Shown in pieces: positions 4,137 through 63,795 of a stretch of DNA of 64,000 nt (the stretch's first letter is position 1; the number at the start of each line of letters is the position of its first letter). The DNA lies in NCBI RefSeq assembly GCF_000758685.1, contig NZ_CP009286.1, positions 3,254,501 through 3,318,500 of the forward strand. The letters are read 5' to 3'. The notes under the pieces are model-generated. The model had not been told where the DNA came from. It saw only the letters and a list, made by a program, of their open reading frames with translations, and searched no databases. A program made the translations under genes and the position numbers. Source of the DNA: Paenibacillus stellifer. GTDB taxonomy: Bacteria; Bacillota; Bacilli; Paenibacillales; Paenibacillaceae.

Positions 4137-4346
4137 TTAGTGCAGGGGCTTGCTGCCGTTCCCATCATTTCCTTCGTTATCTACAATTTCAATGGATTCA
4201 AGCTGAGCGCGGAAGTTACGGCGCACGTTGCCCAGATAAATTTCACGGAGCCTGGCGCGTTCCGCCAATTCTTCCTCGTTAAGCCCTTCGCTCTTCTGCT
4301 TGCGGGCAAGCTCGTTAATCCGGTTAACCAGTTCATCTATGTTCAA
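4137..4346 (-). CDS. ynzC: DUF896 / YnzC-family small protein
   Basis: 69 residues, highly charged and helical, matching the short YnzC family (UPF0291) with the typical N-terminus IDELVxRINELARKxKxEGL. Function is not established; in Bacillus subtilis ynzC belongs to the SOS-induced yneA-yneB-ynzC operon. The start codon is TTG, placed 7 bases after AGGAGG. Here it follows yneA directly with no yneB resolvase between them, and a terminator-like hairpin lies in the gap. Confidence 0.85.
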   Translation of the reverse strand: MNIDELVNRINELARKQKSEGLNEEELAERARLREIYLGNVRRNFRAQLESIEIVDNEGNDGNGSKPLH

Positions 4347-15566: not shown

Positions 15567-15780
15567 ATAATAATCCTCTCGGGTTATGGTGACTCCAGCT
15601 TACCACATTTAGGAGATGCACTCAAAACCCAAAGCAAGCAGAATGCACTTCACTTATCATATTGCATAAATCGATTTAGTGATTTCGAATCAACATTATT
15701 TAGATCTGAAGGATAGGAGCTGTCTATTAATTGCACCTTTAAGCATAAGAGCCTAGTTACAAATCACGCAAATGCTGCAT

Positions 15781-15838
15781 AAAAAAGGCTCCGCCTCCGG
15801 ACTTCCTGCGTGCATGGAAGCCTCCGGCTGCGGAGCCG
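15781..15838 (-). terminator. ponA terminator
   Basis: Minus strand: GGCTCCGC...CCGGAGG and the matching right arm ending GGAGCC, then six T. A very long stem just after the PBP1A stop. Confidence 0.9.
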
Positions 15839-15863
15839 CTACTTCAATTTCTGCCTTCTGTCG

Positions 15864-18497
15864 TTACTGGGTCACAACGCCTGCATCGGCGCCGCCTGTT
15901 ACATTCTGGGTGTCGGTTTCGGGGACGGCAGCCCCACCAGCCGCAGCCCCGTCAGCGGGACTGGCAGCTGGTGAAGGGGAAGGCGTGGTAGTAACCGGAA
16001 GCTCTCCACCGCCCTGATTACCATTGCCGTTACCATTCCCGTTTCCGTTGCCGTTGCCATTACCGTTACCATTCCCATTTCCGTTTCCATTGCCATCGAC
16101 GTTCCCGCCGCCATTCCCGTTGCCGTTGTCTGTTCCGCCGCCGTTATCGCCGCCCGGCACAGTTTGCTCCGGACCTCCTCGTGCGCCTTGGTCAGGTGAA
16201 GGAGAAGGTTCAACGGAAGGAGATGGTGAAGGCGACGGAGACGGCTCCGCTCCTTCAATCAGGATGGTTGCCGTGTTGGACGGATCGCTCTCCGTCCCCG
16301 TGGCAGGATCATAGACCGTTACATAATACTCATAGGTCAGCCCCGCCATGGCGCCGATGTCTGCCGCATTTGGCGACAGTGTGCTGACGAGCTGGGTGAA
16401 GTCCGCCTCTGAAGTCTCCTTCCGGTATACGCGATATTCTTTACCCTCGCCCGTAACCGGATTCCAGGCCAGGTTAACGGTGCCGGTCGATGACTCATAC
16501 GCAGCAGTCAGTCCGGTAACGGCCTGAACCTGCTCGGTAACCTGCTCAGACGGCTTCGGTATATCCAGATTATCCGGTTTCGGGAACGATTTCTCCGGAT
16601 AGTTCTTCACGACCTCGCCCATAACTTTGCCCCAGAACGCCGCAGCCAGCGGACTGCTGTTCTTCAGCAAATGCTTACGGTCGGGATTGTCATAGCCCAT
16701 CCAGACTGCTGCGGTAAGCTCCGGCGTATAGCCGACGAACCAGACATCGCGGTTGGAGCTCACGCCGCTGTATCCGCTTTGGGTCGTGCCAGTCTTGCCC
16801 GCAACCGGACGGTCGATCTTGGCCTTCTTGCCCGTACCGCTCTGCACGACCTCCTGCATCATTTCGGTCATCTGGTAAGCGGTACTCTCCTTCATGACCC
16901 GCTCGGCGGTCGTGTTGGCTTTGTAGGCCGTTTCACCCGTGCTGTCCGCAATCGACTTGATCGCATAAGCCTGCCGCTCCTCACCGCCTGTTGCAAAGGC
17001 CGTATAGGCTTGAGCCATCTCTAGCGTGTTTGTTCCCTTCTCCATGCCGCCAAGCGCAAGTGAAAGGTTGCGGTCATTATCGCCTACGCCGATTCCAAGC
17101 TTCTTGGCAAAATCATAGCCGGTTCCAACCCCGATCTGGCTCAGCAGCCATACAGCCGGAATATTCTCGGACTTCGTCAGCGCCTCGCTCATGCTGATCG
17201 TGTTCGAATACCCGTGAAGGTTGGTCGGACAGTAATCGCCGAAGCACTGCTTCGCGTTGCTGATCTGGGAGTCCATCGAGAACTTGCCGGACTCAATCGC
17301 TGGCGCATAGGACACGATCGGCTTGATCGATGATCCCGGCGAGCGGCGGCTGTCATTCACGCGGCTGAAGCCCTTCTTCTCATAATTGCGTCCGCCCATC
17401 AGCGCCACAATACCGCCGGTCTCCTGGTTAATGATAACCATGGAGCCTTGAACCGGCTCGTCATCAACGCTCTTCTCGAAATTGTCAGCGTCGGCAAAAG
17501 CGTTCTCGACCGTCGTCTGGGCATCCTTATCCATCGTGGTATAGATTTTGTAGCCGCCGATATTCAGATCGTCTTCAGTCAGGCCATACTTGTTCTCGGC
17601 TTCGTCAATGACGTAGTCGATGAACGCCTGATACTTCTGCTTCGTGGCCGGCGGCTTATAGTTATAATTAATCACCTTCGCCTGATTCATTTCTTCCTGC
17701 GTAATGTAGCCCTGCTCATTCATCAGCTGGAGCACAACTCCGCGCCGCTCTTTGGACAGCTCGGGATTGCGCAGCGGATTATAGCGGGAAGGTCCCTTCG
17801 GCATGGCCGCAAGCGTGGCGATCTGCCATAGCTTCAGCTCATTCAGGTTGCTGACTCCGAAATAATGCTCGGAAGCCGCCTTGATTCCATAGACCGTGCC
17901 TCCGAAGTTGATCCGGTTCAAATACAGCGTAATGATTTCATCCTTCGATTTGTGACGCTCCAGCGCCATCGCGATCGACATCTCCGTCGCTTTGCGGAAG
18001 AAGGTTTTGTCCCGGGTCAAGAAGATGTTCTTGGCCAGCTGCTGGGTAATGGTACTGCCGCCTTCCACCATGCTCCGGGCAATAACATCTTTGACCGCCG
18101 CACGGCCGATTGACCACAGATCGACCCCCTGATGCTCGTAGAAACGTTTATCCTCGGTTGCTACGAACGCATCCTTGATGATCTGGGGAATCTTATCGCT
18201 CTCGACCGGATCGCTCTTCTCAAGAGCCAGCTCGGCGATTTGATTCGCATTCCGGTCATAAATCTTCGTAGTCGGATTGACCGTCAGTTTGCCTTCATTC
18301 TCGGTCAGCAGCTTCTCTCCGTTAATGGTAATGAACAAATAGCCGCCTAGTGCACAAAAAATGGCCAATGCCATGGTGAAAAACAGCGTCCACAGCACAC
18401 GCTTTCGGGTCAGCTTTCTCTTCTTCTTCGGTTTTGGCGGTTGCCCCCCTCCGGATTTCCGGTGACGGTTCGACCGCAAAATTTCGTCGTTCGACAT
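15864..18497 (-). CDS. ponA: Class A penicillin-binding protein 1A with FN3 domain and Gly-Asn tail
   Basis: 877 residues. A bifunctional peptidoglycan synthase. Basic cytoplasmic N-terminus, membrane anchor at about 33-57, GT51 glycosyltransferase with ATEDKRFYEHQG (catalytic Glu115) and GGSTITQQLAKN, then a transpeptidase with SSIK (Ser389), SEN and KTGTTQ. A fibronectin type III-like domain (about 660-750) follows, then a Ser-Pro repeat (PSPSPSPSVEPSPSP) and a long Gly-Asn repeat around 15 units long before a Thr/Pro/Ala-rich end. The catalytic part is typical of Bacillales; the tail is probably a flexible wall-spanning or surface extension. The Gly-Asn tract is encoded by near-identical hexamers (16020-16110), a candidate for length variation. 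Confidence 0.95.
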   Translation of the reverse strand: MSNDEILRSNRHRKSGGGQPPKPKKKRKLTRKRVLWTLFFTMALAIFCALGGYLFITINGEKLLTENEGKLTVNPTTKIYDRNANQIAELALEKSDPVESDKIPQIIKDAFVATEDKRFYEHQGVDLWSIGRAAVKDVIARSMVEGGSTITQQLAKNIFLTRDKTFFRKATEMSIAMALERHKSKDEIITLYLNRINFGGTVYGIKAASEHYFGVSNLNELKLWQIATLAAMPKGPSRYNPLRNPELSKERRGVVLQLMNEQGYITQEEMNQAKVINYNYKPPATKQKYQAFIDYVIDEAENKYGLTEDDLNIGGYKIYTTMDKDAQTTVENAFADADNFEKSVDDEPVQGSMVIINQETGGIVALMGGRNYEKKGFSRVNDSRRSPGSSIKPIVSYAPAIESGKFSMDSQISNAKQCFGDYCPTNLHGYSNTISMSEALTKSENIPAVWLLSQIGVGTGYDFAKKLGIGVGDNDRNLSLALGGMEKGTNTLEMAQAYTAFATGGEERQAYAIKSIADSTGETAYKANTTAERVMKESTAYQMTEMMQEVVQSGTGKKAKIDRPVAGKTGTTQSGYSGVSSNRDVWFVGYTPELTAAVWMGYDNPDRKHLLKNSSPLAAAFWGKVMGEVVKNYPEKSFPKPDNLDIPKPSEQVTEQVQAVTGLTAAYESSTGTVNLAWNPVTGEGKEYRVYRKETSEADFTQLVSTLSPNAADIGAMAGLTYEYYVTVYDPATGTESDPSNTATILIEGAEPSPSPSPSPSVEPSPSPDQGARGGPEQTVPGGDNGGGTDNGNGNGGGNVDGNGNGNGNGNGNGNGNGNGNGNGNGNQGGGELPVTTTPSPSPAASPADGAAAGGAAVPETDTQNVTGGADAGVVTQ

Positions 18498-50181: not shown

Positions 50182-51186
50182 TTACAGACTGCGTCTGACC
50201 GCCGCCGGCCGGTTCGGCAGACGCCCTTCCAATCTGAGCAGTTTCCTTCTTAATTCTCCCGCTGAAAAATGCTCCCCAATGAACACTGCAACATCGGCAA
50301 CCTCTCCCTGTGGATTAATCTTCAGGAAATCCGTTTCCCGGTAAGCGTACTGGAACAGGAACCTTCCGGATGTATCGCTGAAGGACAGCACTCCCTTGGC
50401 CCTGTATACGTCATTCGGCAATTCCTTGATGAACGCCTCAAATGCTTCGCTGTTCACCGGGTGCTCGAAATAATGGGTATATGCCATAACATGATCATGC
50501 GAAGCATGCTGCTCTCCCTGGCTCTCCACATCCGCGCCGTCATCATCGGCCTCCGGCTGTCCCGTAACCGGGACTTCCGCCATCGCCTCCATCAAATTCT
50601 TAATCTCGACGTCACAGCGTACGGCAGGAATGATCTCGGCGAAAGCGTTCCATTTGCGGACCAAGCTTTGGACTTCCTCCGCTTCCTCCGGCGATACCCG
50701 ATCCTGTTTATTCAGAATCAGCGCCGACGCGCTGCGGATCTGTTCCTGCATGAGACGATAGGTCGCGCCTTTCTGCTCTCTGTACAAACCAAGCAAGTGC
50801 GCAGCGTCGACGACCGTAATCAAACCCTTCAATTCGACCTTGGTGTACAGCGAGGTCTCCGTTACATTGTCGATAATATCGAGCGGGTTCGCCGCACCCG
50901 TTGCTTCAATCACAATGACATCCGGCGCGTCACGCTTGACCAGCGTCGTCAGCTCCATACTGAGATCCGCGCTCGCGGAGCAGCAAATACATCCGGCCAG
51001 CAGCTCAGCCATTGGAACAGAGCGGTCTACCAGCATGCCGTCAAAGTTCACTTCCCCAAGCTCGTTCATCACCACGGCCGGAAGCAGGTTCTGCTCCTTC
51101 CAATCGTCCAGCAGCCGGTGCAGCAGCGTTGTCTTGCCGCTCCCCAGAAACCCGGACAAAATATATACCGGAACCGTATTCTCCAT
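50182..51186 (-). CDS. CobW/ZNG1-type GTP-binding metallochaperone
   Basis: 334 residues. G1 GFLGSGKTTLL, the metal-binding CxCC-type motif AGCICCSASADL, G3-region VIEATGAANP, LNKQDR, and a C-terminal CobW_C domain after a His-rich linker (HASHDHVMAYTHYF). The family delivers Zn, Co or other metals to client proteins; the substrate metal cannot be told from the sequence. RBS AAGGGAG. Divergent from moaB. An imperfect palindrome TTACATTGTAA is in the shared upstream region, a possible metal-regulator site. Confidence 0.88.
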   Translation of the reverse strand: MENTVPVYILSGFLGSGKTTLLHRLLDDWKEQNLLPAVVMNELGEVNFDGMLVDRSVPMAELLAGCICCSASADLSMELTTLVKRDAPDVIVIEATGAANPLDIIDNVTETSLYTKVELKGLITVVDAAHLLGLYREQKGATYRLMQEQIRSASALILNKQDRVSPEEAEEVQSLVRKWNAFAEIIPAVRCDVEIKNLMEAMAEVPVTGQPEADDDGADVESQGEQHASHDHVMAYTHYFEHPVNSEAFEAFIKELPNDVYRAKGVLSFSDTSGRFLFQYAYRETDFLKINPQGEVADVAVFIGEHFSAGELRRKLLRLEGRLPNRPAAVRRSL

Positions 51187-55908: not shown

Positions 55909-55915
55909 GAAAACA

Positions 55916-55965
55916 GGGCACTCCCGCACGTCAGCTTCAACTGTCCGCGGGGATGCCCCTTTTTT
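55916..55965. terminator. Bidirectional terminator between the ABC-2 and nitrogenase-like operons
   Basis: GGGCACTCCCGC / GCGGGGATGCCC with TTTTTT on the plus strand and TGTTTTC on the minus strand. Confidence 0.82.
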
Positions 55966-55990: not shown

Positions 55991-57316
55991 TCAACGATAG
56001 GTATGGAGGACACGGTCATATATATCCTCGATCAGGCGAAGCCCCCCGTTGAATCCGGCATAACCGCCATTCAGGATCAACCGGTATGTGATCGGTACAC
56101 CTACAGGCAGCAGATCGCCGCCGATATCGGTGGCAAGATCCCGTTCCCAACCGCTGCCCAGAATAAGCGCGCGCTGCTTCGGCGCCGATTGGCGGATCTT
56201 CGCCTGAATGTCGCCGCCGTCCACCGAGAATTCCGCCTTCGCCGACCTTCTGTCGGATATTGACGCAAACTGCTGCCTGATGCCTTCCCGGTAGGATTCA
56301 GGCGTATCATCGACAATGTACTGCGTCTCCGCCGGAATGATGCCCAGCTCGTTCAGCAGAAATTTCGACAGTCCGACGGCATAAGTCGCGTCAAGAATCG
56401 TATAGAATACTCGCGGAATGCCGTAGCGGAACTCCAGCATGAAATCGGCCGTACGCTCGATATGCGTATAGAACTTGTATTCTTCGTTGCTGATGAACGC
56501 TTCCGCCTGCGTGGCATCCACGCTCTCACCGAACGCGGCGATTTCCCGCAGGAACCGTCCCGTCTCCGCCCCGCCCACCGGCAAATAAGGGAAATGATAG
56601 AACGGCGTTCCGTATTTCCGCTTCAGCAGCTTTGCGGTCTTAAGTCCCGGCCATGCAGATATAACGATATTGAACTCGGCGCGCGGAATCGTCAGCCATT
56701 CGGATACACCTTCCGATTCAGGCCCGAATAGAATGTTCGGCGTGAGGCCAATACCGGTCAGGAGCCGCTTGATTTCCTGCAAATTGCCAATCCAGTAAGG
56801 GTCCTGATACGGTATGGACGCGAATACATTGACGAGACCCGGAATCACCTGATCCTTGTTCTCGGCGTACCGGTCAACATACTGCTCGATAATGGCTTTG
56901 AGAATCAGATCATGGCTGACATAGTTATTGCTCTTGAAGCCGCCGGTTTCCGCGAATACGATGGGGCGGCCTTCGTTCTGAAAATCCCTCGTCACCTGCC
57001 CCACATCATCGCCCACGATATCGGAGGTGCAGCCGGTCAACACGACGAATAAGTCGGCGTCGATTACCTTAAATGCCCCTTCGATAACGCCGCGCAGCTT
57101 CTTCTCTCCGCCGAACACAACTTCCGATTCACTGGAGTTCGTGCAGGGAATGGTACTGCCCCCCGCATAGCCCTCGCCTTGGCCGAGCAGGCCATGAATC
57201 TTCGTGCTGCAACCCGGTCCGGCATGAACGACGGGCACGGCGCGCTTGATCGCGATTACCGACTGCTGTACACCAAGTGCGCAGGAATACCGCGGCTGCT
57301 CAATAAGCTTTGACAT
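55991..57316 (-). CDS. Nitrogenase-like protein, K (beta) subunit
   Basis: 441 residues. Three cysteines sit where NifK has its P-cluster ligands: Cys12 (YSCALG), Cys36 (HAGPGCSTK) and Cys96 (LTGCTSDIVGDD). SESEVVFGGEKKLRGVI corresponds to the NifK-type 'AVFGG' segment. It is shorter than NifK (about 510-520 in A. vinelandii) because the N-terminal extension is absent. GGGAGG precedes the ATG, which lies inside the end of the D-like gene (17-base overlap). Last gene of the operon. A NifN scaffold is an alternative, but pairing with a D-like subunit carrying both cofactor ligands argues for a catalytic complex. Confidence 0.85.
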   Translation of the reverse strand: MSKLIEQPRYSCALGVQQSVIAIKRAVPVVHAGPGCSTKIHGLLGQGEGYAGGSTIPCTNSSESEVVFGGEKKLRGVIEGAFKVIDADLFVVLTGCTSDIVGDDVGQVTRDFQNEGRPIVFAETGGFKSNNYVSHDLILKAIIEQYVDRYAENKDQVIPGLVNVFASIPYQDPYWIGNLQEIKRLLTGIGLTPNILFGPESEGVSEWLTIPRAEFNIVISAWPGLKTAKLLKRKYGTPFYHFPYLPVGGAETGRFLREIAAFGESVDATQAEAFISNEEYKFYTHIERTADFMLEFRYGIPRVFYTILDATYAVGLSKFLLNELGIIPAETQYIVDDTPESYREGIRQQFASISDRRSAKAEFSVDGGDIQAKIRQSAPKQRALILGSGWERDLATDIGGDLLPVGVPITYRLILNGGYAGFNGGLRLIEDIYDRVLHTYR

Positions 57317-58781
57317 GCGCGTTACCTCCCAGGAAGGTGTACGGGTCCTGCTCCAGCCACCATTTGGTGTATGGCATGGAGCTGTGCTTGGCCAGATTAG
57401 TCACAAATTCCCTGTTATCCAGCGTCTCCAGAATCCGTTCAGCGTAATTGAGCAAGCCTTGATAGCCCCAGCTAAAATGCTCATCACCGATCAGGAGCGT
57501 CGGAATGCCCAGTTTGGCGCCCCATAGCGTCATGCCGCCGTGCCGGGCGATCATCAGATCCGGCCGGACACGGTTCAAAATGTTAACCAGCTCGTAAGCC
57601 TGCTTGTTGCAGACATTGTAGCTTTTTACATCTCCATAGGTTTTAACTGTATGATCCAGCATATCGGCTTCGGGACTTTCATTATCATAAATGGGATCAT
57701 GATGAAAAATAGCTGCGCCCTGCACGTCAATTCCCAGCTCGCGGAGCAGGGCGATCAGCGCGTGGCCATGGGCTGACCCCGCCGTCAGATAGCAAGTCGT
57801 CCCGGTCAGCTTGGCACGGTATTCCTCCAGCTTCGGAAGCACCGCCGCTCTTTCTTCGAGGATGATCTCTTCAATTACATCTTCGCGGCCCAGCACCCGG
57901 CCGAGTTCCCGCATCCACGCGTCGGTTCCTGCTAAACCGTATGCCATCGGAGCCTTGATCTCGGGAACTCCGTAGACCTGCTCCAGCGCGGCTCCCATGT
58001 AGGTGCCGAGCGTCGGGCAAACTTGAATGGTCGCAGCAGCCTCCGAAATCGTCTCGAGCTGGCTGACCGTAGAGAACGGGACAATATAATTTGCCTCGTA
58101 GCCCAGTCTTTCCAGCAGCTTCGAGAAGACGTCACTGCCCCAGAAGTTGATAATATTCACCTTGTTGGTCTTCTTGGTCGGCGGCTTCACAAGCCCGCGC
58201 ACAACGGAGTGGTAGGCGGAGTCGAACCCGGAGGTCCAGATCTTGGATCGGAATCCTTCACAGACACAGTTCACGACCGGGATGCCGAGTTCTTCCGTCA
58301 ATTTGGTCGTGACGCTCTCTACATCTTCGCCGACGATGCCAGAGGCGCAGGAAGTTGTAATGAAGATAGCGTTTGGGCTAACCCGCTCATAGGCCAGGCG
58401 GATGGTCTTCTCAAGCTTGGTCAGCGCGCCGAAGACCGTATCCATCTCATCAATATTAGTATTGAAGTAACGGCCGATCGACGACGGCAGCTCCCGTTCC
58501 ATCTGTCCGACCCGATAGACAAAATTAAACCCGGCAAAATCGCCAGCGCAGCCGACAGGCGCGTGATTGATAACAGCGGCGTCGCGAATCATTGACAATT
58601 GGCAGAAGGCGTTCCCCGAACCGCATCCCATGCACTGGCTGAAGGAACGGGTGCCGTCCTTAAGGCAGCCTTCATTGGAGCAGCCTACCAGTTCGCCGGC
58701 CGATCCCGCGAATCCGGTAATCGAGCCCAAGCGTTTTTCGCGAATCGGGACCTCGGACAAGTTGAGATTAACTTTGGGCAT
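57300..58781 (-). CDS. Nitrogenase-like protein, D (alpha) subunit
   Basis: 493 residues. P-cluster cysteines are at Cys53, Cys78 (HAPVGCAGD) and Cys145 (TTSCASGIVGEDVES), with the same 25-residue spacing as in NifD/NifE. The cofactor ligands of NifD (Cys275, His442) correspond to Cys255 (IQVCPTLGTYMGAALEQVYG) and His435 (DEHFSWGYQG). At the NifD Gln191 and His195 positions, in CEGFR-SKIW-TSGF, this protein has Trp182 and Phe186, so classical N2 reduction is unlikely. The N-terminus has extra cysteines (34, 39, 50, 60) around the first ligand. NifE usually lacks the His ligand, which argues against a scaffold role. RBS AAAGGGG. Sulfur-substrate reduction is inferred from context. Confidence 0.87.
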   Translation of the reverse strand: MPKVNLNLSEVPIREKRLGSITGFAGSAGELVGCSNEGCLKDGTRSFSQCMGCGSGNAFCQLSMIRDAAVINHAPVGCAGDFAGFNFVYRVGQMERELPSSIGRYFNTNIDEMDTVFGALTKLEKTIRLAYERVSPNAIFITTSCASGIVGEDVESVTTKLTEELGIPVVNCVCEGFRSKIWTSGFDSAYHSVVRGLVKPPTKKTNKVNIINFWGSDVFSKLLERLGYEANYIVPFSTVSQLETISEAAATIQVCPTLGTYMGAALEQVYGVPEIKAPMAYGLAGTDAWMRELGRVLGREDVIEEIILEERAAVLPKLEEYRAKLTGTTCYLTAGSAHGHALIALLRELGIDVQGAAIFHHDPIYDNESPEADMLDHTVKTYGDVKSYNVCNKQAYELVNILNRVRPDLMIARHGGMTLWGAKLGIPTLLIGDEHFSWGYQGLLNYAERILETLDNREFVTNLAKHSSMPYTKWWLEQDPYTFLGGNAHVKAY

Positions 58782-58799
58782 AACCTATTCCCCTTTATG

Positions 58800-59606
58800 T
58801 TATAAGTAATATTCGAGTGCTCGGCTCTTACCCCCAAAATGGAGGGATTCCAAGATCTTTGAACGATAGGCAATGAAATCCGGACTGTTCCGGTCGCGCG
58901 GACGTTCCAGATTGACATCAATAACTTCCTTGATCCGCCCCGGACCCGGAGTCATGACGACGATCCGGTCGCTCAGGTAGACCGCTTCATCAACATCATG
59001 CGTAACCAGAAGCATCGTTGTGCCCCGCAGCTTCCACAGCCGCAGCAGCTCATCCTGCAGGTTCATTCGGGTAAAAGCATCCAGAGCGCCAAGCGGCTCG
59101 TCAAGCATCAGCACCTTGGGCTGATTGATCAGTGCGCGCGCCAGTGAAGCGCGCTGGGCCATACCGCCCGACACCTGATGCGGATACGCTCCGCCGAAGT
59201 CCTTCAGGCCTACCAGATCCAAATACTGGTCCGGCTTGCTGGCGTTCTGTTTATAGATTTTCCGAGCTTTCAGCCCGGAGGCGATATTCTGCCGCAGCGT
59301 CATCCATGGAAACAGATTCGCCTGCTGGAAGACGTATCCCCGCTCGTAATTCGTTCCTTTAATCGGCACGCCGTCAAGTTCAAGCTCTCCGGCTGCGCAT
59401 TCGTCCAGACCGGCAATCAGCCGCATCAAGGTCGTCTTTCCGCAGCCGCTCGGACCAATGAACGACACGAAACTGCACGCCTCAATCTCCAGACTGACAT
59501 CGTTCAGCGCCTCCACCCGGCTGCCTGAATCGTCGGTGTAAACGCGGCTTACCCGACTGATGGAGACGTTTCCCGCCGGCTTGCCCCATTCGGTCTGCAC
59601 ACTCAT
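58800..59606 (-). CDS. ABC importer ATP-binding protein (SsuB/TauB/NrtD-like)
   Basis: 268 residues with GPSGCGKTTLMRL, VSGGMAQRASLARAL, VLMLDEPLGALD and LLVTHDVDEAV. Overlaps the permease gene by 4 bases and ends 18 bases before the D-like subunit gene. The chain of short spacings places transporter and nitrogenase-like genes in one transcript. Substrate by family: sulfonates, taurine, nitrate or similar small oxyanions; the neighbouring metY favours a sulfur compound. Confidence 0.9.
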   Translation of the reverse strand: MSVQTEWGKPAGNVSISRVSRVYTDDSGSRVEALNDVSLEIEACSFVSFIGPSGCGKTTLMRLIAGLDECAAGELELDGVPIKGTNYERGYVFQQANLFPWMTLRQNIASGLKARKIYKQNASKPDQYLDLVGLKDFGGAYPHQVSGGMAQRASLARALINQPKVLMLDEPLGALDAFTRMNLQDELLRLWKLRGTTMLLVTHDVDEAVYLSDRIVVMTPGPGRIKEVIDVNLERPRDRNSPDFIAYRSKILESLHFGGKSRALEYYL

Positions 59607-60595
59607 TTGACCAGTCCTTTCTGCCAGCGAAGCACTCTGTCTCTAACGCGGAAGATTATCGCCATCACAATGGAGAAGGCGATCGCCATAATAATGATCG
59701 ACGCATACACCTTGGCGTAGTTGGACCAGCCCTTGGCCCAATTGATATACCAGCCGAGTCCCGCCTTGGCCCCGATCATTTCGGATACGACAAGAGTGGC
59801 GAATGAAATGCCCGTCGCCGTGTAGATGCCGGTAAATATCGAAGGCATTGCCCCCGGAATGGCTACACGGAAGATCAGAAACCGTTCATCCGCTCCAAGT
59901 GTACGGGCTGCTTCGAAATAGGTCTTCTGCACATTAGCTATGCCTACACCAGTCATGAAGGCGACCGGGAAGGCGACCGCAATTACGATCAGCAGCACTC
60001 CGGCATAAAAGCTGGACGGTACAATAATCATAACAATCGGAATCAGCGCCGTAGCAGGTACCACTCCCATGAACTTGATAACGGGAAACATCCAGTAGCT
60101 CCACTTCTGATACCAGCCGATAAGCACTCCCAGAACTATGCCGATTATCGAACCGATTACGAAGCCTACAGCCAGCAGCCGTACCGAGTATGCTGTGCTC
60201 AGCAGCAGCGTGTTCCAGTCTTCTTTCATGACTGAAATAATCTGCGCCGGTCCCGGCACGAATGGCAGCGGCAAAATATTCAGCTTGGTAGACAGCGTAT
60301 CCCACAGCGCGACTAGCAACCCTGCCGCCGTATAAAATGGCGAGTCTCGCAATACCTTGGCACGCCTCTTCTCACTAAACGACGATAAGCCAGCACGCAG
60401 TGCATAAATAATAACAGCCGCTGTCAGAAGATAGCGGTAAGGCTCCGAATCCACATCCTGGCGTGTCTGCATTAGTAGGCTTATGCCAAGCGCAACCGCG
60501 AATGCCACGGCCGGCAGCGACGACTTGAGCGAAGCGGGTAAGCCGAAGGAGCGCCGGGAGCCTTCGAGTCTCAAATTTCGATCAACAATACTCAT
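59603..60595 (-). CDS. ABC importer permease (SsuC/TauC-like)
   Basis: 330 residues, longer than the usual 250-280 because of an N-terminal part with two extra hydrophobic segments (about 25-42 and 57-68). The core has six spans with EAARTLGADERFLIFRVAIPGAMPSIFTG (the EAA loop, about 225-255). A GAGGG RBS lies before the ATG. It is preceded by an intercistronic hairpin that separates it from the binding-protein gene. Confidence 0.88.
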   Translation of the reverse strand: MSIVDRNLRLEGSRRSFGLPASLKSSLPAVAFAVALGISLLMQTRQDVDSEPYRYLLTAAVIIYALRAGLSSFSEKRRAKVLRDSPFYTAAGLLVALWDTLSTKLNILPLPFVPGPAQIISVMKEDWNTLLLSTAYSVRLLAVGFVIGSIIGIVLGVLIGWYQKWSYWMFPVIKFMGVVPATALIPIVMIIVPSSFYAGVLLIVIAVAFPVAFMTGVGIANVQKTYFEAARTLGADERFLIFRVAIPGAMPSIFTGIYTATGISFATLVVSEMIGAKAGLGWYINWAKGWSNYAKVYASIIIMAIAFSIVMAIIFRVRDRVLRWQKGLVK

Positions 60596-60617
60596 GTTTT
60601 GCTTCCCTCCAAACCCG

Positions 60618-60667
60618 GCCGTTCTTCCCGTATTCGCTGGTCAGCGAATTATCGGGTTTAGAACGGC
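60618..60667 (-). repeat. Long intercistronic stem-loop between binding protein and permease
   Basis: Minus strand: GCCGTTCT, CCCG and ATTCGCT arms pair with AGCGAAT, CGGG and AGAACGGC in a stem of about 20 pairs with bulges. No T run follows, so it is not a terminator; it may protect the 3' end of the upstream mRNA. Confidence 0.75.
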
Positions 60668-60682
60668 GCGGAATTTGAGCAA

Positions 60683-61789
60683 TTATTTGCCTGAATTTAA
60701 AATGTCGGAATAAGCATCATTCGCGAATTTCTCCGGATCGGTATCCTTCTTCAAGAACCCGGTCTTGCTGAATTGCCCTACGAAATAACGAATGTCGTCC
60801 TTGGCGGCGTCAGTCGTGTATTCGAAGTGATAGCTCTTGATCAAATCAGTTACGAGCGCCAGATCATCGGTGGCGACATACTTCTTCTCGATCTCGATTT
60901 TAGCCGTCTCTTCAGGGTTCTGAGCAATCCAGGCTGCTGCCTTCTGGTACGCACGAGCAATTGCTTGCACCTTCTCCGGGTTATCCTTGATCTGTTTGCC
61001 GGAGGCGTACAGGAAGCAGCAGCTCTTGCCGGCGAAGATCGGATCGCTGGAAATATCGGACAGCACCGTGTAGCCGTTGTTTACCTCAGCCAGCTTGCCG
61101 AACGGGTCCCATGCAGCATAGACGTCGATTTCGCCCTTCTTGACGCCTTCCTGCAGCTGATCCAGCGGATACGCCCGCCATTCCACGTCCTTCTGCGGAT
61201 CAAGACCCGCATTGCTCAGTACGACGCTTGCCACCGCCATTGGAACTCCGCCGATTTCATCGACACCGATTTTCTTGCCTTTAAGATCGGCGGCCGATTT
61301 GATGCTGGATCCAGGTGGCACAACCAGCTTGATGCAGCCGTGATGAAGCCCGCCGATCACCTTCAGGTCGAGACCCTGCTGGATGGAGGTGAACCATACG
61401 AAGTCGCCGTTCGTCACTGTGAATTCGCCTGTCGCAAGTCCCGCCTTCATGGAATCCATCGAGCCGCTGACAAGTTCCACATCCAATCCTTCTTCTGCGA
61501 AGAAGCCTTTCTCGTAGGCGATATAGCTGGGCGCTCCGCACACGGCGCCGCTCAGCGCCTGTATCTTCAGCTTGCCGAACTTGTACGAGGTCGGCTTCGC
61601 CGCTGCAGCCGTGCTTGCGGCGGGTGCCGACGGAGATCCGGCAGTGCTTGCGCTCTGTGTCGCCGTATGATTCGCGTGATTCTCTGTGTTAGAAGTAGCA
61701 GTTGATGATTGATTATTGCCGCAAGCGGTGATTGCCACCAACGCAGCTGTAACCAGCAGTATTGCCGGCAGCTTTACTTTGTTCCTCAT
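60683..61789 (-). CDS. Substrate-binding lipoprotein with unusual cysteines (NrtA/SsuA-like)
   Basis: 368 residues. Signal peptide with lipobox ending at Cys23, a Ser/Thr/Ala/His-rich linker (25-65), then an NMT1/SsuA-type domain: GAPSYIAYEKGFFAEEGLDVEL and KGKKIGVDEIGGVPMAVASVVL over residues 85-190. Besides the lipidated Cys there are Cys84, Cys152 (in LHHGC, beside two His) and the pair Cys257-Cys258 (KSCCFL). Four cysteines in an exported Bacillota binding protein are uncommon and could bind a metal, a thiol or a metal-thiol complex. Downstream of metY in the same operon. Confidence 0.88.
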   Translation of the reverse strand: MRNKVKLPAILLVTAALVAITACGNNQSSTATSNTENHANHTATQSASTAGSPSAPAASTAAAAKPTSYKFGKLKIQALSGAVCGAPSYIAYEKGFFAEEGLDVELVSGSMDSMKAGLATGEFTVTNGDFVWFTSIQQGLDLKVIGGLHHGCIKLVVPPGSSIKSAADLKGKKIGVDEIGGVPMAVASVVLSNAGLDPQKDVEWRAYPLDQLQEGVKKGEIDVYAAWDPFGKLAEVNNGYTVLSDISSDPIFAGKSCCFLYASGKQIKDNPEKVQAIARAYQKAAAWIAQNPEETAKIEIEKKYVATDDLALVTDLIKSYHFEYTTDAAKDDIRYFVGQFSKTGFLKKDTDPEKFANDAYSDILNSGK

Positions 61790-61850
61790 GATCCCTAGAT
61801 CCTCCCTACTTATGCTTGTTTCTTCTCTCTTTTTCTTTAGATGTGTTTCT

Positions 61851-63173
61851 CTATACTACTGCTTTGACAAAAGCCTGATTGAACGCTTGCTCCAGATCGG
61901 CAATCAAGTCTTCGGCAGATTCCAGCCCGATAGATAGCCGTACGGTTTCCGGCTTAATGCCGGCCAGTGCCTGCTCCTCCGGATTCAATTCTCCATGAGT
62001 TGTCTTTGGTGAATTGATGATAAGCGACCGGGCATCCCCTACATTAGCGTGATAGCTGAACAGCTTCACTGAGTTAAGGAAGACCTTCAGTTGCTCATCA
62101 TTTCCACTAAAGCCAAAGGAGAAAATCGATCCGGCGCCTTTCGGGAAATATTTCTCCGCAAGCTCCCGATACGGATTTCCCTCCGCAGCAGGATGACTCA
62201 CCCAGCTTACCTTATCGTTCTGTTCCAGATATTTTACAACTTTCAAAGTGTTCGCAATTTGCTTGTCGACCCGTTCAGTAAGAGTCACCAATCCTTGAAT
62301 CAGCAGAAAAGCGTCAAACGGGCTCAGTGCCGCCCCGAAATAGGCCAGGTAGCTAAGCCGGATTCTAGATGTGAACGGTGCGTCAGGGAAGACTTCCAAA
62401 GTGCTGCGCTCACGCCCGGTGGCCTGATCCCGCAGTAGAAACTGCGGTTCTTCAAAATGAGGGAATTTGCCGTTTGCCCAGTTGAACTTGCCGTTCTCCA
62501 CAATTACTCCGCCGATTGTCGTGCCATGCCCGCCGATCGCCTTGGTCGCCGAGTAAATGATAATATCAGCACCATGGGAGAACGAATCGAACAGGTATGG
62601 CGTACCGAACGTATTATCAATAACCAGAGGAAGTCCGTTGTCATGCGCAATTTCAGCAATGGCTTCTACATCCAGGATCGTCGCATTAGGGTTGCTGATG
62701 CTCTCGATCAGTATCGCTTTTGTGTCCGGTCCGATCGCCTGCCGGAAAGATTGAGGATCATCCGAATTCTCTACAAACTCCACTTTGACACCGAACTTCG
62801 GGAACAGATGCTTGATTGCGTCAAAGGTTCCGCCGTAAAGTCTCGGTGTCGTCAGAATCGTTCCGCCCCCTTCCGCTAGGTTCAGCAGCGTGTATCCCAC
62901 CGCAGCCATGCCGGATGCGACTGCGACCGCTCCCGTGCCCTTGTCCAAAGCCGTCAATCGTTGTTCCAGCACCGCTACGGTTGGGTTGCCAATCCGGGTG
63001 TACAGATAGCCGGCTTCCTCCATCCCGAACAGCTTCTCTGCCCGCTCGACGCTGCCAAGATCATAGGATGCCGTCTGATAGATCGGCACCGATACCGCAT
63101 ATTGATGCTCACTGGAATCGTAACCTGCTCTAACCTTCAAAGTGTCAAAGCCCAAAGGCTGATGTTCCGTCAT
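61851..63173 (-). CDS. metY: O-acetylhomoserine sulfhydrylase (MetY)
   Basis: 440 residues. PLP enzyme that joins O-acetylhomoserine with sulfide to give homocysteine, or with methanethiol to give methionine. PLP lysine Lys211 in YSATKAIGGHGT; DNTFGTPYL and YTRIGNPT are family motifs, and the length (about 430-440) fits MetY rather than the shorter MetB/MetC. RBS GTGGGGA. Its place between the NifX-like gene and a transporter for a likely sulfur compound suggests that it assimilates the sulfur product of the nitrogenase-like reductase. Confidence 0.94.
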   Translation of the reverse strand: MTEHQPLGFDTLKVRAGYDSSEHQYAVSVPIYQTASYDLGSVERAEKLFGMEEAGYLYTRIGNPTVAVLEQRLTALDKGTGAVAVASGMAAVGYTLLNLAEGGGTILTTPRLYGGTFDAIKHLFPKFGVKVEFVENSDDPQSFRQAIGPDTKAILIESISNPNATILDVEAIAEIAHDNGLPLVIDNTFGTPYLFDSFSHGADIIIYSATKAIGGHGTTIGGVIVENGKFNWANGKFPHFEEPQFLLRDQATGRERSTLEVFPDAPFTSRIRLSYLAYFGAALSPFDAFLLIQGLVTLTERVDKQIANTLKVVKYLEQNDKVSWVSHPAAEGNPYRELAEKYFPKGAGSIFSFGFSGNDEQLKVFLNSVKLFSYHANVGDARSLIINSPKTTHGELNPEEQALAGIKPETVRLSIGLESAEDLIADLEQAFNQAFVKAVV

Positions 63174-63199
63174 TTCAATTCCCCACTTCCCTGATTAAA

Positions 63200-63556
63200 T
63201 TATTCTCTTGCCAGAATCGAACCCCTATTGGACTGAAGAAACCGAGTCAATCGATTCAGCGCCTTGTCTATAGGGGCCTCTACAGCCAGCGCCGTAACGC
63301 CGAATTGGCTCAATGCACCGATCGCTCCCCGCCCGATTTGTGCCGCAAGCACGCAGCCGCAATCGGACAATTCCTCCGCCATTGTCCGCAGCCTGTTAGG
63401 CTCATGTCCCTCTTGAGTTCTATCAGGCACAACCACTCTGCTCTCAATGAACGCATATTCTCCTGCATCTGAGATCTCATAGATCAGGAATCGGCTGCAT
63501 CGGCCGAAATGCTCATCCACGGTATAACCGTCGGAGCTGCCAACCGCCACTTTCAC
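63200..63556 (-). CDS. NifX/NifB C-terminal-like cofactor-binding protein
   Basis: 118 residues, a single dinitrogenase iron-molybdenum cofactor biosynthesis domain. VKVAVGSSDGYTVDEHFGRCSRFLIYEI and CGCVLAAQIGRGAIGALSQFGV are typical of NifX, VnfX and NafY-core proteins that carry cluster precursors. The GTG start lies 9 bases after AAGGGGGAG; a longer frame begins with an ATG inside the terminator T run and is therefore rejected. First gene of the operon, ahead of metY by 26 bases. Carrying a NifB-co-like cluster to the D/K complex is inferred. Confidence 0.85.
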   Translation of the reverse strand: MKVAVGSSDGYTVDEHFGRCSRFLIYEISDAGEYAFIESRVVVPDRTQEGHEPNRLRTMAEELSDCGCVLAAQIGRGAIGALSQFGVTALAVEAPIDKALNRLTRFLQSNRGSILARE

Positions 63557-63652
63557 CTGTATGTTCTCCCCCTTCCGGCTTTCTGCTGCCTTGTCATGTT
63601 CAGCAATTCTCAAATGACCGTTTGTCTTTGTGTATGGGCCCCCTTCACCGTT

Positions 63653-63690
63653 AAAAAACAAAAGAGGCCCCTGTATAAATCAGGGGCCTC
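63653..63690 (-). terminator. Attenuator ahead of the nitrogenase-like operon
   Basis: Minus strand: GAGGCCCCTG-ATTTATA-CAGGGGCCTC, perfect 10-base arms, then TTTTGTTTTTT. It lies about 105 bases after the predicted transcription start and 97 bases before the first start codon. Confidence 0.85.
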
Positions 63691-63710
63691 CATTGATATG
63701 GTCGGCATGT

Positions 63711-63730
63711 GAAGTTGTTCACAACAGTTC
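63711..63730. repeat. Inverted repeat in the leader of the nitrogenase-like operon
   Basis: GTTGT-TC-ACAAC with further pairing of the flanks (GAA/TTC). It lies between promoter and attenuator; it may be an RNA hairpin or an operator. Confidence 0.45.
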
Positions 63731-63766
63731 TTATTACTATATTTCCAATTGAATTACTATGCTTTA

Positions 63767-63795
63767 AATATAGCGAATTCACTAAGATACTTCAA
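63767..63795 (-). promoter_or_regulatory. Promoter of the nitrogenase-like operon
   Basis: Minus strand: TTGAAG (63790-63795), 17-base spacer, TATATT (63767-63772). Downstream at about 63741-63760 is an AATTC-AATTGGAA element that loosely recalls cysteine-regulator (CymR) sites; I cannot confirm it. Confidence 0.7.

Follow-up and report, generated by a model that had tools for sequence, protein, structure and literature searches.

Which reaction do nitrogenase-like proteins catalyse when they are encoded together with genes of sulfur metabolism? This question is raised by an operon in a stretch of 64,000 nucleotides of the Paenibacillus stellifer genome (NZ_CP009286.1, positions 3,254,501 to 3,318,500; hereafter the window). 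It consists of seven minus-strand genes (55991-63556) and a leader up to 63795. The genes encode a NifX-like carrier, a MetY-type sulfhydrylase, the binding protein, permease and ATPase of an SsuABC-type importer, and the D and K subunits of a nitrogenase-like reductase (Table 1). The initial annotation of the window had described these genes in this order on one strand, with spacings of -17 to about 90 bases, and the open reading frame (ORF), domain and spacing data bear it out in full: the successive spacings from NifX to K are 26, 61, 87, -4, 18 and -17 bases. The same order is found again in P. sinensis (L028; L and G numbers denote loci and genomes compared) and partly in other Paenibacillus, and therefore the arrangement is not due to chance.

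Based on sequence comparison, the operon probably (roughly three chances in four) encodes a two-component, ATP-driven reductase of group IV-A which serves sulfur assimilation. Taken by its parts, a role in sulfur assimilation is very probable, the cleavage of a C-S bond is likely, and any single substrate that could be named is doubtful.

The proposed pathway would begin with the import of a small organic sulfur compound via the SsuABC-type importer. A NifH-type protein encoded elsewhere, perhaps reduced by a neighbouring 2-oxoacid:ferredoxin oxidoreductase, would feed electrons to the P-cluster and on to an [Fe8S9C] cluster on Cys255 and His414 of D; the clusters are predicted from the solved structure of methylthio-alkane reductase (Mar) and the ligands from alignment. 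The C-S bond would then be cut, with release of a thiol, methanethiol or sulfide, which the MetY of the operon would join to O-acetylhomoserine, forming methionine or homocysteine. Enzymes of the MetY family carry out this reaction with thiols or sulfide and do not use sulfite. Assembly and carriage of the cluster would fall to NifB and NifX-type proteins, and the substrate would be other than those of Mar, because the pocket differs. A precedent is isethionate reductase (Isr), with an SsuCAB importer on which growth on isethionate depends (PMC11423573).

Relationship of the D and K proteins to known families

The best relatives among solved structures are MarD (474 bits) and MarK (437 bits); the best chain of the nitrogenase family outside Mar scores 122 and 67 bits, respectively. 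The nearest known enzyme is Mar of R. rubrum, with 45% identity to MarD and 48% to MarK. Concerning the canonical nitrogenases (Nif, Vnf and Anf), the window D reaches 124 bits with the NCBIfam nifD model, the cut-off of which is 654 and with which the NifD of the same genome scores 803; it passes none of the NifD, VnfD and AnfD cut-offs and has neither Gln191 nor His195, and this candidate was rejected. Clustering with the NifEN scaffolds, the outcome against which the initial annotation had set its proposal, did not occur: the window D is 26% identical to the NifE of the genome compared with 45% to MarD, and obtains 148 bits with the nifE model (cut-off 505).

A tree built from 87 D proteins sets off the clade of the window (W, 31 sequences) with a Shimodaira-Hasegawa-like approximate likelihood ratio (SH-aLRT) support of 85 and pairs it with Mar (96), the L024-type clade (X) lying outside. 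In a more careful D tree of 36 sequences, the support is 81/73 for W and 100/100 for Mar. The approximately unbiased (AU) test on this tree rejects a clade of Mar with the four Paenibacillus sequences (p 4e-6) and does not reject W together with X with Mar outside (p 0.078); the K tree (31 sequences) requires two changes for W. Because of the last two results and the support for W, it is likely, rather than certain, that W is sister to Mar. A further deep lineage of nitrogenase-like D proteins (clade Z: L034 at 6566, L038 at 3700 and L055 at 1720; two Sporomusa and a Bacillota metagenome-assembled genome, MAG) stands beside group IV-A.

Members of W in the D tree belong to Bacillota, Spirochaetota, Synergistota, Actinomycetota (Coriobacteriales) and Elusimicrobiota. 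One of them, from Heliophilum fasciatum (L031, contig NZ_SLXT01000007), groups with the Paenibacillus sequences in both the D and K trees; its D, K and NifH genes, in that order, and the reversed K-D pair behind them correspond, by contig, order and gene numbers, to NflDK1-NflH and NflDK2 of PMC9147875. That paper places NflDK1 with the NfaDK of E. proavitum and P. riograndensis in group IV-A, a predicted nitrogenase. On this identification of NflDK1, the window clade is group IV-A ('Nfa'). It also includes an Endomicrobium MAG (L088, in the D tree), and a second MAG found by search (L093) is 55% identical to the window D; the gene of the E. proavitum type strain was not found in the two genomes of the L088 genus that were searched. 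MetY and an SsuABC-type importer are encoded beside D in L093, and CysK in L088. A further D/K pair in the L088 genome, albeit a MAG, obtains scores similar to those of the canonical C. beijerinckii and A. tundrae pairs. The published reading of these proteins is that of a probable nitrogenase, whereas a sulfur enzyme is argued here; group IV-A genes have been noted close to sulfur-type mlp clusters in a preprint (PMC10418091).

Active-site residues

Residues were compared in 195 D proteins of clade W (119 database proteins and 76 loci, partly identical sequences); with the MarD numbering used, each of the nine residues that PMC12552129 (section 8) names is recovered. C53, C78, C145, C255, W182, F186, H360, R413 and H414 are found in all 195, C60 in 194 and Q61 in 168, and the K P-cluster cysteines C12, C36 and C96 in 19 of 19 W-clade K proteins examined. 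The window pair shares with MarBHDK (R. rubrum, group IV-C; PDB 9FMG and 9D9U) the P-cluster cysteines, the cofactor ligands (MarD Cys270 and His429, with Arg428; C255, H414 and R413 in W) and W195, F199 and H375. Also as in Mar, Trp182 and Phe186 take the places of NifD Gln191 and His195 in the window D and throughout W. The main difference concerns MarD His194, which together with Trp195 lies beside S2B and is His in 120 of 120 Mar proteins and never in W (Ile 169, Val 21, Leu 4, Met 1); altogether 27 columns are fixed differently between the W and Mar D proteins. Since the ligands are kept, His194 is replaced and these columns differ, the metal centres resemble those of Mar, whereas the pocket looks different. 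Besides the identity values and the separate clade given above, the window system differs from MarBHDK in having no H or B gene of its own, in the presence of an importer and in its co-existence with a true Mar pair.

The five nitrogenase-like pairs of the window organism are of the kind described as Paenibacillus sub-group II nifDK-like genes, for which the ligands of the iron-molybdenum cofactor (FeMoco) were reported as not conserved (PMC3961195, section 19; PMC4246453, section 12) and to which those papers assign no function; in the window pair the ligands found in Mar are kept. The reports of 2014 took NifD, whose His sits on another loop, for comparison.

Gene neighbourhoods in relatives

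The loci of relatives are the best 80 of 558 matches, with a bias towards close relatives. An Rfam scan covered 53 of them. Four of the 53 loci (L040, L046, L071, L073) have an S-adenosylmethionine (SAM) riboswitch directly upstream of the D-containing operon; two others (L045, L047) have a T-box there, the specifier of which is read in both as TGC (Cys) within GAA-TGC-A. In C. beijerinckii the run is T-box, D, K, MetY, NifH, MetN, MetI, MetQ, NifX, NifB, MccB and CysK. Second SAM riboswitches are found right after the D-K pair and ahead of further genes in L046 (11369-11470) and L071 (6898-7006), and in L106 the group IV-A D gene is immediately preceded by a TwoAYGGAY RNA (RF01731; 9580-9745).

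From 79 loci with D, 45 have 4 kb on both sides and 40 are left after removal of five near-duplicates. Counts on these 40 are automatic and too low in places (the importer of L028 is missed owing to overlapping ORFs). Within 8 kb, NifH is present in 25, NifB in 24, MetI in 20, MetQ in 19 and NifX in 17; the full SsuABC is present in five, either importer in 22, MetY in 14, and any of MetY, MccB and CysK in 24. MetY of the window subfamily (at least 530 bits) is found within 8 kb in 19 of the 79 loci; among the 36 loci flanked by 8 kb on either side, eight contain it and a further four contain another MetY. Looking at each genome separately, the D-adjacent MetY is 59-98% identical to that of the window in 8 of 16, and all other copies found there reach at most 54%; in the window genome, a second MetY located elsewhere is 49% identical to that of the operon. 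A window-type copy away from D occurs in at least one further genome (G012). The link which the initial annotation drew from the reductase to sulfur import and MetY is thus supported by the Mar-type ligands and, in some relatives, by SAM riboswitch or Cys-type T-box leaders and a dedicated MetY.

Orthologues of D (at least 84%) are present in 8 of 60 Paenibacillus genomes searched, the window genome included; that of P. sabinae T27 (G052) is 91% identical to the window D. H and NifB are found inside the operon in G031, G047 and P. sp. S150. In four genomes, P. zanthoxyli (L029), P. forsythiae (L030), G032 (L125) and P. sabinae (L126), MetY is directly followed by D and the importer is absent; the importer is therefore optional. 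A two-gene 2-oxoacid:ferredoxin oxidoreductase is encoded next upstream on the same strand, outside the window and 256 bases above the NifX-like ORF as listed, with the promoter-like site of the operon in between. Because it stays next to the operon in five Paenibacillus loci (the window genome, L028, L030, L125 and L126), it may be the electron supplier.

Other nitrogenase-like genes of the window genome

The genome is a single contig of 5.66 Mb, in which 18 genes match PF00148 and five score above 300 bits as NifH. NifD, NifK, NifE and NifB of the nif set (L025) and AnfD, AnfG and AnfK of the Fe-only set (L023) score over their NCBIfam cut-offs, and with these at hand the genome has no need of the window pair for N2. 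There are five nitrogenase-like pairs: those of the window, L021, L022, L024 and L027. True Mar proteins are encoded in L022, with identities of 72 and 67% to R. rubrum MarD and MarK; the corresponding values are 36 and 47% for L024, 29 and 36% for L021, and 27 and 34% for L027.

Of the three P-cluster cysteines, the D protein of L027 keeps one; its cofactor ligands are missing, and a radical SAM gene lies alongside. For IsrD, a single conserved P-cluster cysteine and the absence of both FeMoco ligands are described (PMC11423573, section 13), a pattern that the L027 pair appears to fit better than the window pair. IsrBHDK of R. capsulatus is, like the system proposed here, a nitrogenase-like sulfur enzyme with an SsuCAB importer; Isr itself was rejected for the window, whose D has all the P-cluster cysteines and cofactor ligands, whereas IsrD, compared by its published description, is without two of the former and both of the latter.

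A second NifH is located in L026 (5845-7256, minus strand) with a NifX-like gene just upstream and no PF00148 match near; it is a candidate reductase for the pairs without H. Downstream of the CysK-K-D-ATPase-H cluster of L021, a BadF-type ATPase is fused to a 2-hydroxyglutaryl-CoA dehydratase D-component (15740-17764).

CRP/FNR-type box and leader RNA

The CRP/FNR-type palindrome TGTGA-N6-TCACA has 21 sites in the genome, compared with two for a reversed-pattern control. Four of the 21 front nitrogenase-like clusters: that of the window, L021 (5645-5660, ahead of CysK-K-D), L024 (1855-1870, between NifB and the importer genes which precede D-K) and L027 (12334-12349, at the start of metK and ahead of H-D-K). 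The Mar locus L022 is without the box. The Poisson probability of this clustering is about 5e-9 (1-kb windows) or 3e-6 (5 kb), for a motif that was picked after the leaders had been viewed.

The leader RNA was searched for with a hairpin-plus-terminator model (R1) trained on six W leaders and on the L021 and L027 leaders of the window genome. Matches outside the training set are the window leader itself, two leaders in L024 (one before NifB, the other before the gene of the importer binding protein), a site ahead of the L027 ABC ATPase (21 bits) and one in the nif region (35 bits) with no same-strand gene for 1.6 kb. The whole-genome search scores only some candidates and missed the window site, and its counts are lower bounds. 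In 41 distinct matches the first hairpin (4 bp) is 100% paired, and 4 of 4 pairs show changes on both sides. This alignment had been fitted to the structure; in shifted controls, pairing drops to 23-55%. The next same-strand gene is NifX, NifH, CysK, MetK, NifB or an ABC importer in 26 of the 36 loci shown. Of the remaining ten, two (L162, L167) immediately precede X- and Y-type operons, four come from two D-less genomes, and none of the listed gene types follows in L130, L133, L154 and L165.

R1 matches with E of 1e-4 or better are found in all 8 genomes that have D, although seven of these had supplied training sequences; among 29 D-less genomes, 7 have such matches. Six of these 7 D-less genomes were inspected: in G034, G050 and G053 the leader is kept and is followed by a flanking gene like that at 50182-51186 of the window, with no D-K matches; in G051 and G055 an importer lies behind the leader; and in G038 the genes have no recognised sulfur tie. 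At the Rfam gathering score, no known riboswitch or T-box is found in the window leader or L020. A GCC/GGC antiterminator pairing noted in some leaders fails to hold in all and was rejected. Among the open-access papers listed by the literature searches, none was seen that connects group IV-A with a SAM riboswitch or a T-box, and none that describes the leader RNA. This leader RNA, undescribed in those papers, covaries across Paenibacillus, mostly ahead of nitrogenase-like operons, NifB, MetK, CysK and ABC importers. Individual leader sites are located at L021 5685-5753, L024 1725-1798 (minus) and 4263-4332, and L027 12374-12459 and 5890-5952 (both minus). The operon's leader and flanking gene, with no D match, are seen in three Paenibacillus (L170, L171, L172).

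Alternative explanations

According to the 'Nfa' view, group IV-A D-K would be a functional minor nitrogenase which reduces N2 with an L-type cluster and without NifEN. E. proavitum is reported to be diazotrophic with group IV genes only, and H. fasciatum without nifDKEN (PMC9147875, PMC11257099, PMC8399215); N2 can also be reduced by L-cluster-bearing NifEN and NifB (PMC13245594). This is opposed by the Mar-type first shell without Gln191 and His195, by the inability of Mar itself to reduce N2 (PMC12552129, section 6), by the SAM and Cys leader control in relatives, and by the Nif and Anf sets already present in the window genome. Also, a K. pneumoniae nifD mutant was not restored by any of the five nifD-like genes from P. 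sabinae, although little weight can be given to the swap of a single divergent subunit. The nifHDK-like genes of this species were unchanged between N2-fixing and non-fixing conditions, with sulfur not varied; both results fit a non-nitrogenase, and we regard the nitrogenase explanation as very improbable.

D/K could also be Mar itself, acting on methylthioethanol, dimethyl sulfide and ethyl methyl sulfide. This identification would account for the sister-like tree position and for the ligands, W182, F186 and H360, but the AU test places the pair outside the Mar clade, His194 and the 27 columns separate the two groups, and the 72%-identical Mar pair is encoded elsewhere in the same genome; it is not retained and seems unlikely. 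A sulfonate reductase acting on an isethionate- or taurine-like compound is an equally weak contender: it would release sulfite, and MetY, from what is known of its family, takes thiols or sulfide. The SsuABC-type importer and the isethionate reductase precedent speak for it, but the IsrD ligand pattern (PMC11423573, section 13) matches the L027 pair and not that of the window.

Several observations weigh against a group IV-A reductase for sulfur assimilation as well. No SAM riboswitch or T-box precedes the operon in 47 of the 53 scanned loci, some of these 47 truncated upstream of D and all scanned Paenibacillus included, and 16 of the 40 loci have no detected MetY, MccB or CysK within 8 kb. 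Neither H nor B is encoded within the window operon, which is not the self-contained module that had been proposed. The unchanged expression in P. sabinae does not support the oxygen control hinted at by the CRP/FNR-type box. No biochemistry was found for the window clade in the literature searched, and N2 fixation with group IV-A proteins is reported for E. proavitum and predicted for H. fasciatum (PMC9147875, PMC11257099, PMC8399215).

A wider claim, for which the chances seem evenly divided, is that 'Nfa' is no nitrogenase but a distinct C-S reductase widespread among anaerobes, dependent on ATP and acting on a non-Mar substrate, and that at least four of the five Paenibacillus clusters, with sulfur-type importers, form one regulon via the leader RNA and the CRP/FNR-type box. 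The functional reading is new and well supported, for a family that is already known but contested. The question of the 2014 authors, why these Paenibacillus have so many nifDK-like genes (PMC3961195), is now testable. Group IV-A continues to be presented as a nitrogenase lying outside groups I-III (PMC9147875, PMC11257099, PMC8399215); if it is a sulfur enzyme, claims of diazotrophy resting on it need another look, and the outgroup in the reconstruction of the nitrogenase ancestor (PMC9641968) acquires a function. It would also be a second family of [Fe8S9C] C-S reductases and a possible biological source of methanethiol and hydrocarbons.

Features of the operon

Table 1. Features of the operon and its leader, in window coordinates
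Feature	Position	Strand	Basis
Promoter-like site TTGAAG-17-TATATT	63767..63795	-	Scan; pattern in 7/8 Paenibacillus leaders compared
CRP/FNR-type palindrome TGTGA-N6-TCACA	63708..63723	.	8/8 Paenibacillus leaders of the operon compared
Leader RNA: short hairpin and terminator-like hairpin (63691-63663)	63652..63709	-	Model R1 (30 bits), terminator scan, covariation
NifX-like carrier (PF02579)	63200..63556	-	Domain and NCBIfam searches; GTG start proposed
MetY-type O-acetylhomoserine sulfhydrylase, subfamily adjoining D	61851..63173	-	Family searches and MetY comparisons
Substrate-binding lipoprotein, SsuA/NMT1 family	60683..61789	-	Domain searches; ITAC, presumably lipobox-like
ABC importer permease, Ssu/Tau/nitrate type	59603..60595	-	Domain searches; under every NCBIfam cut-off shown
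ABC importer ATPase, Ssu/Tau/nitrate type	58800..59606	-	Domain searches; under every NCBIfam cut-off shown
D subunit, group IV-A nitrogenase-like	57300..58781	-	PF00148; 45% to MarD; P-cluster C53, C78, C145
D cofactor ligands C255 and H414, with R413	57300..58781	-	Alignment
K subunit, group IV-A nitrogenase-like	55991..57316	-	PF00148; 48% to R. rubrum MarK; P-cluster C12, C36, C96
Weak terminator-like hairpin 3' of K	55913..55927	-	Consensus match only; region has 14 vs 7.9 expected

A search of solved structures did not reveal the ligand of the binding protein (five weak relatives, the best at 47 bits). The promoter scan gives 7 sites in the region with 6.5 expected, so that a lone site is not probative, yet this one is conserved; its first base, 63795, is where the initial annotation had ended the operon. 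The NifX-like ORF as listed begins at TTG 63661. Since GGGGGAGA is found immediately 5' of the alternative start GTG 63556, and the start codons of NifX in relatives are at the matching position before KVAV/WKVAV (read by eye), the real start is most likely GTG 63556.

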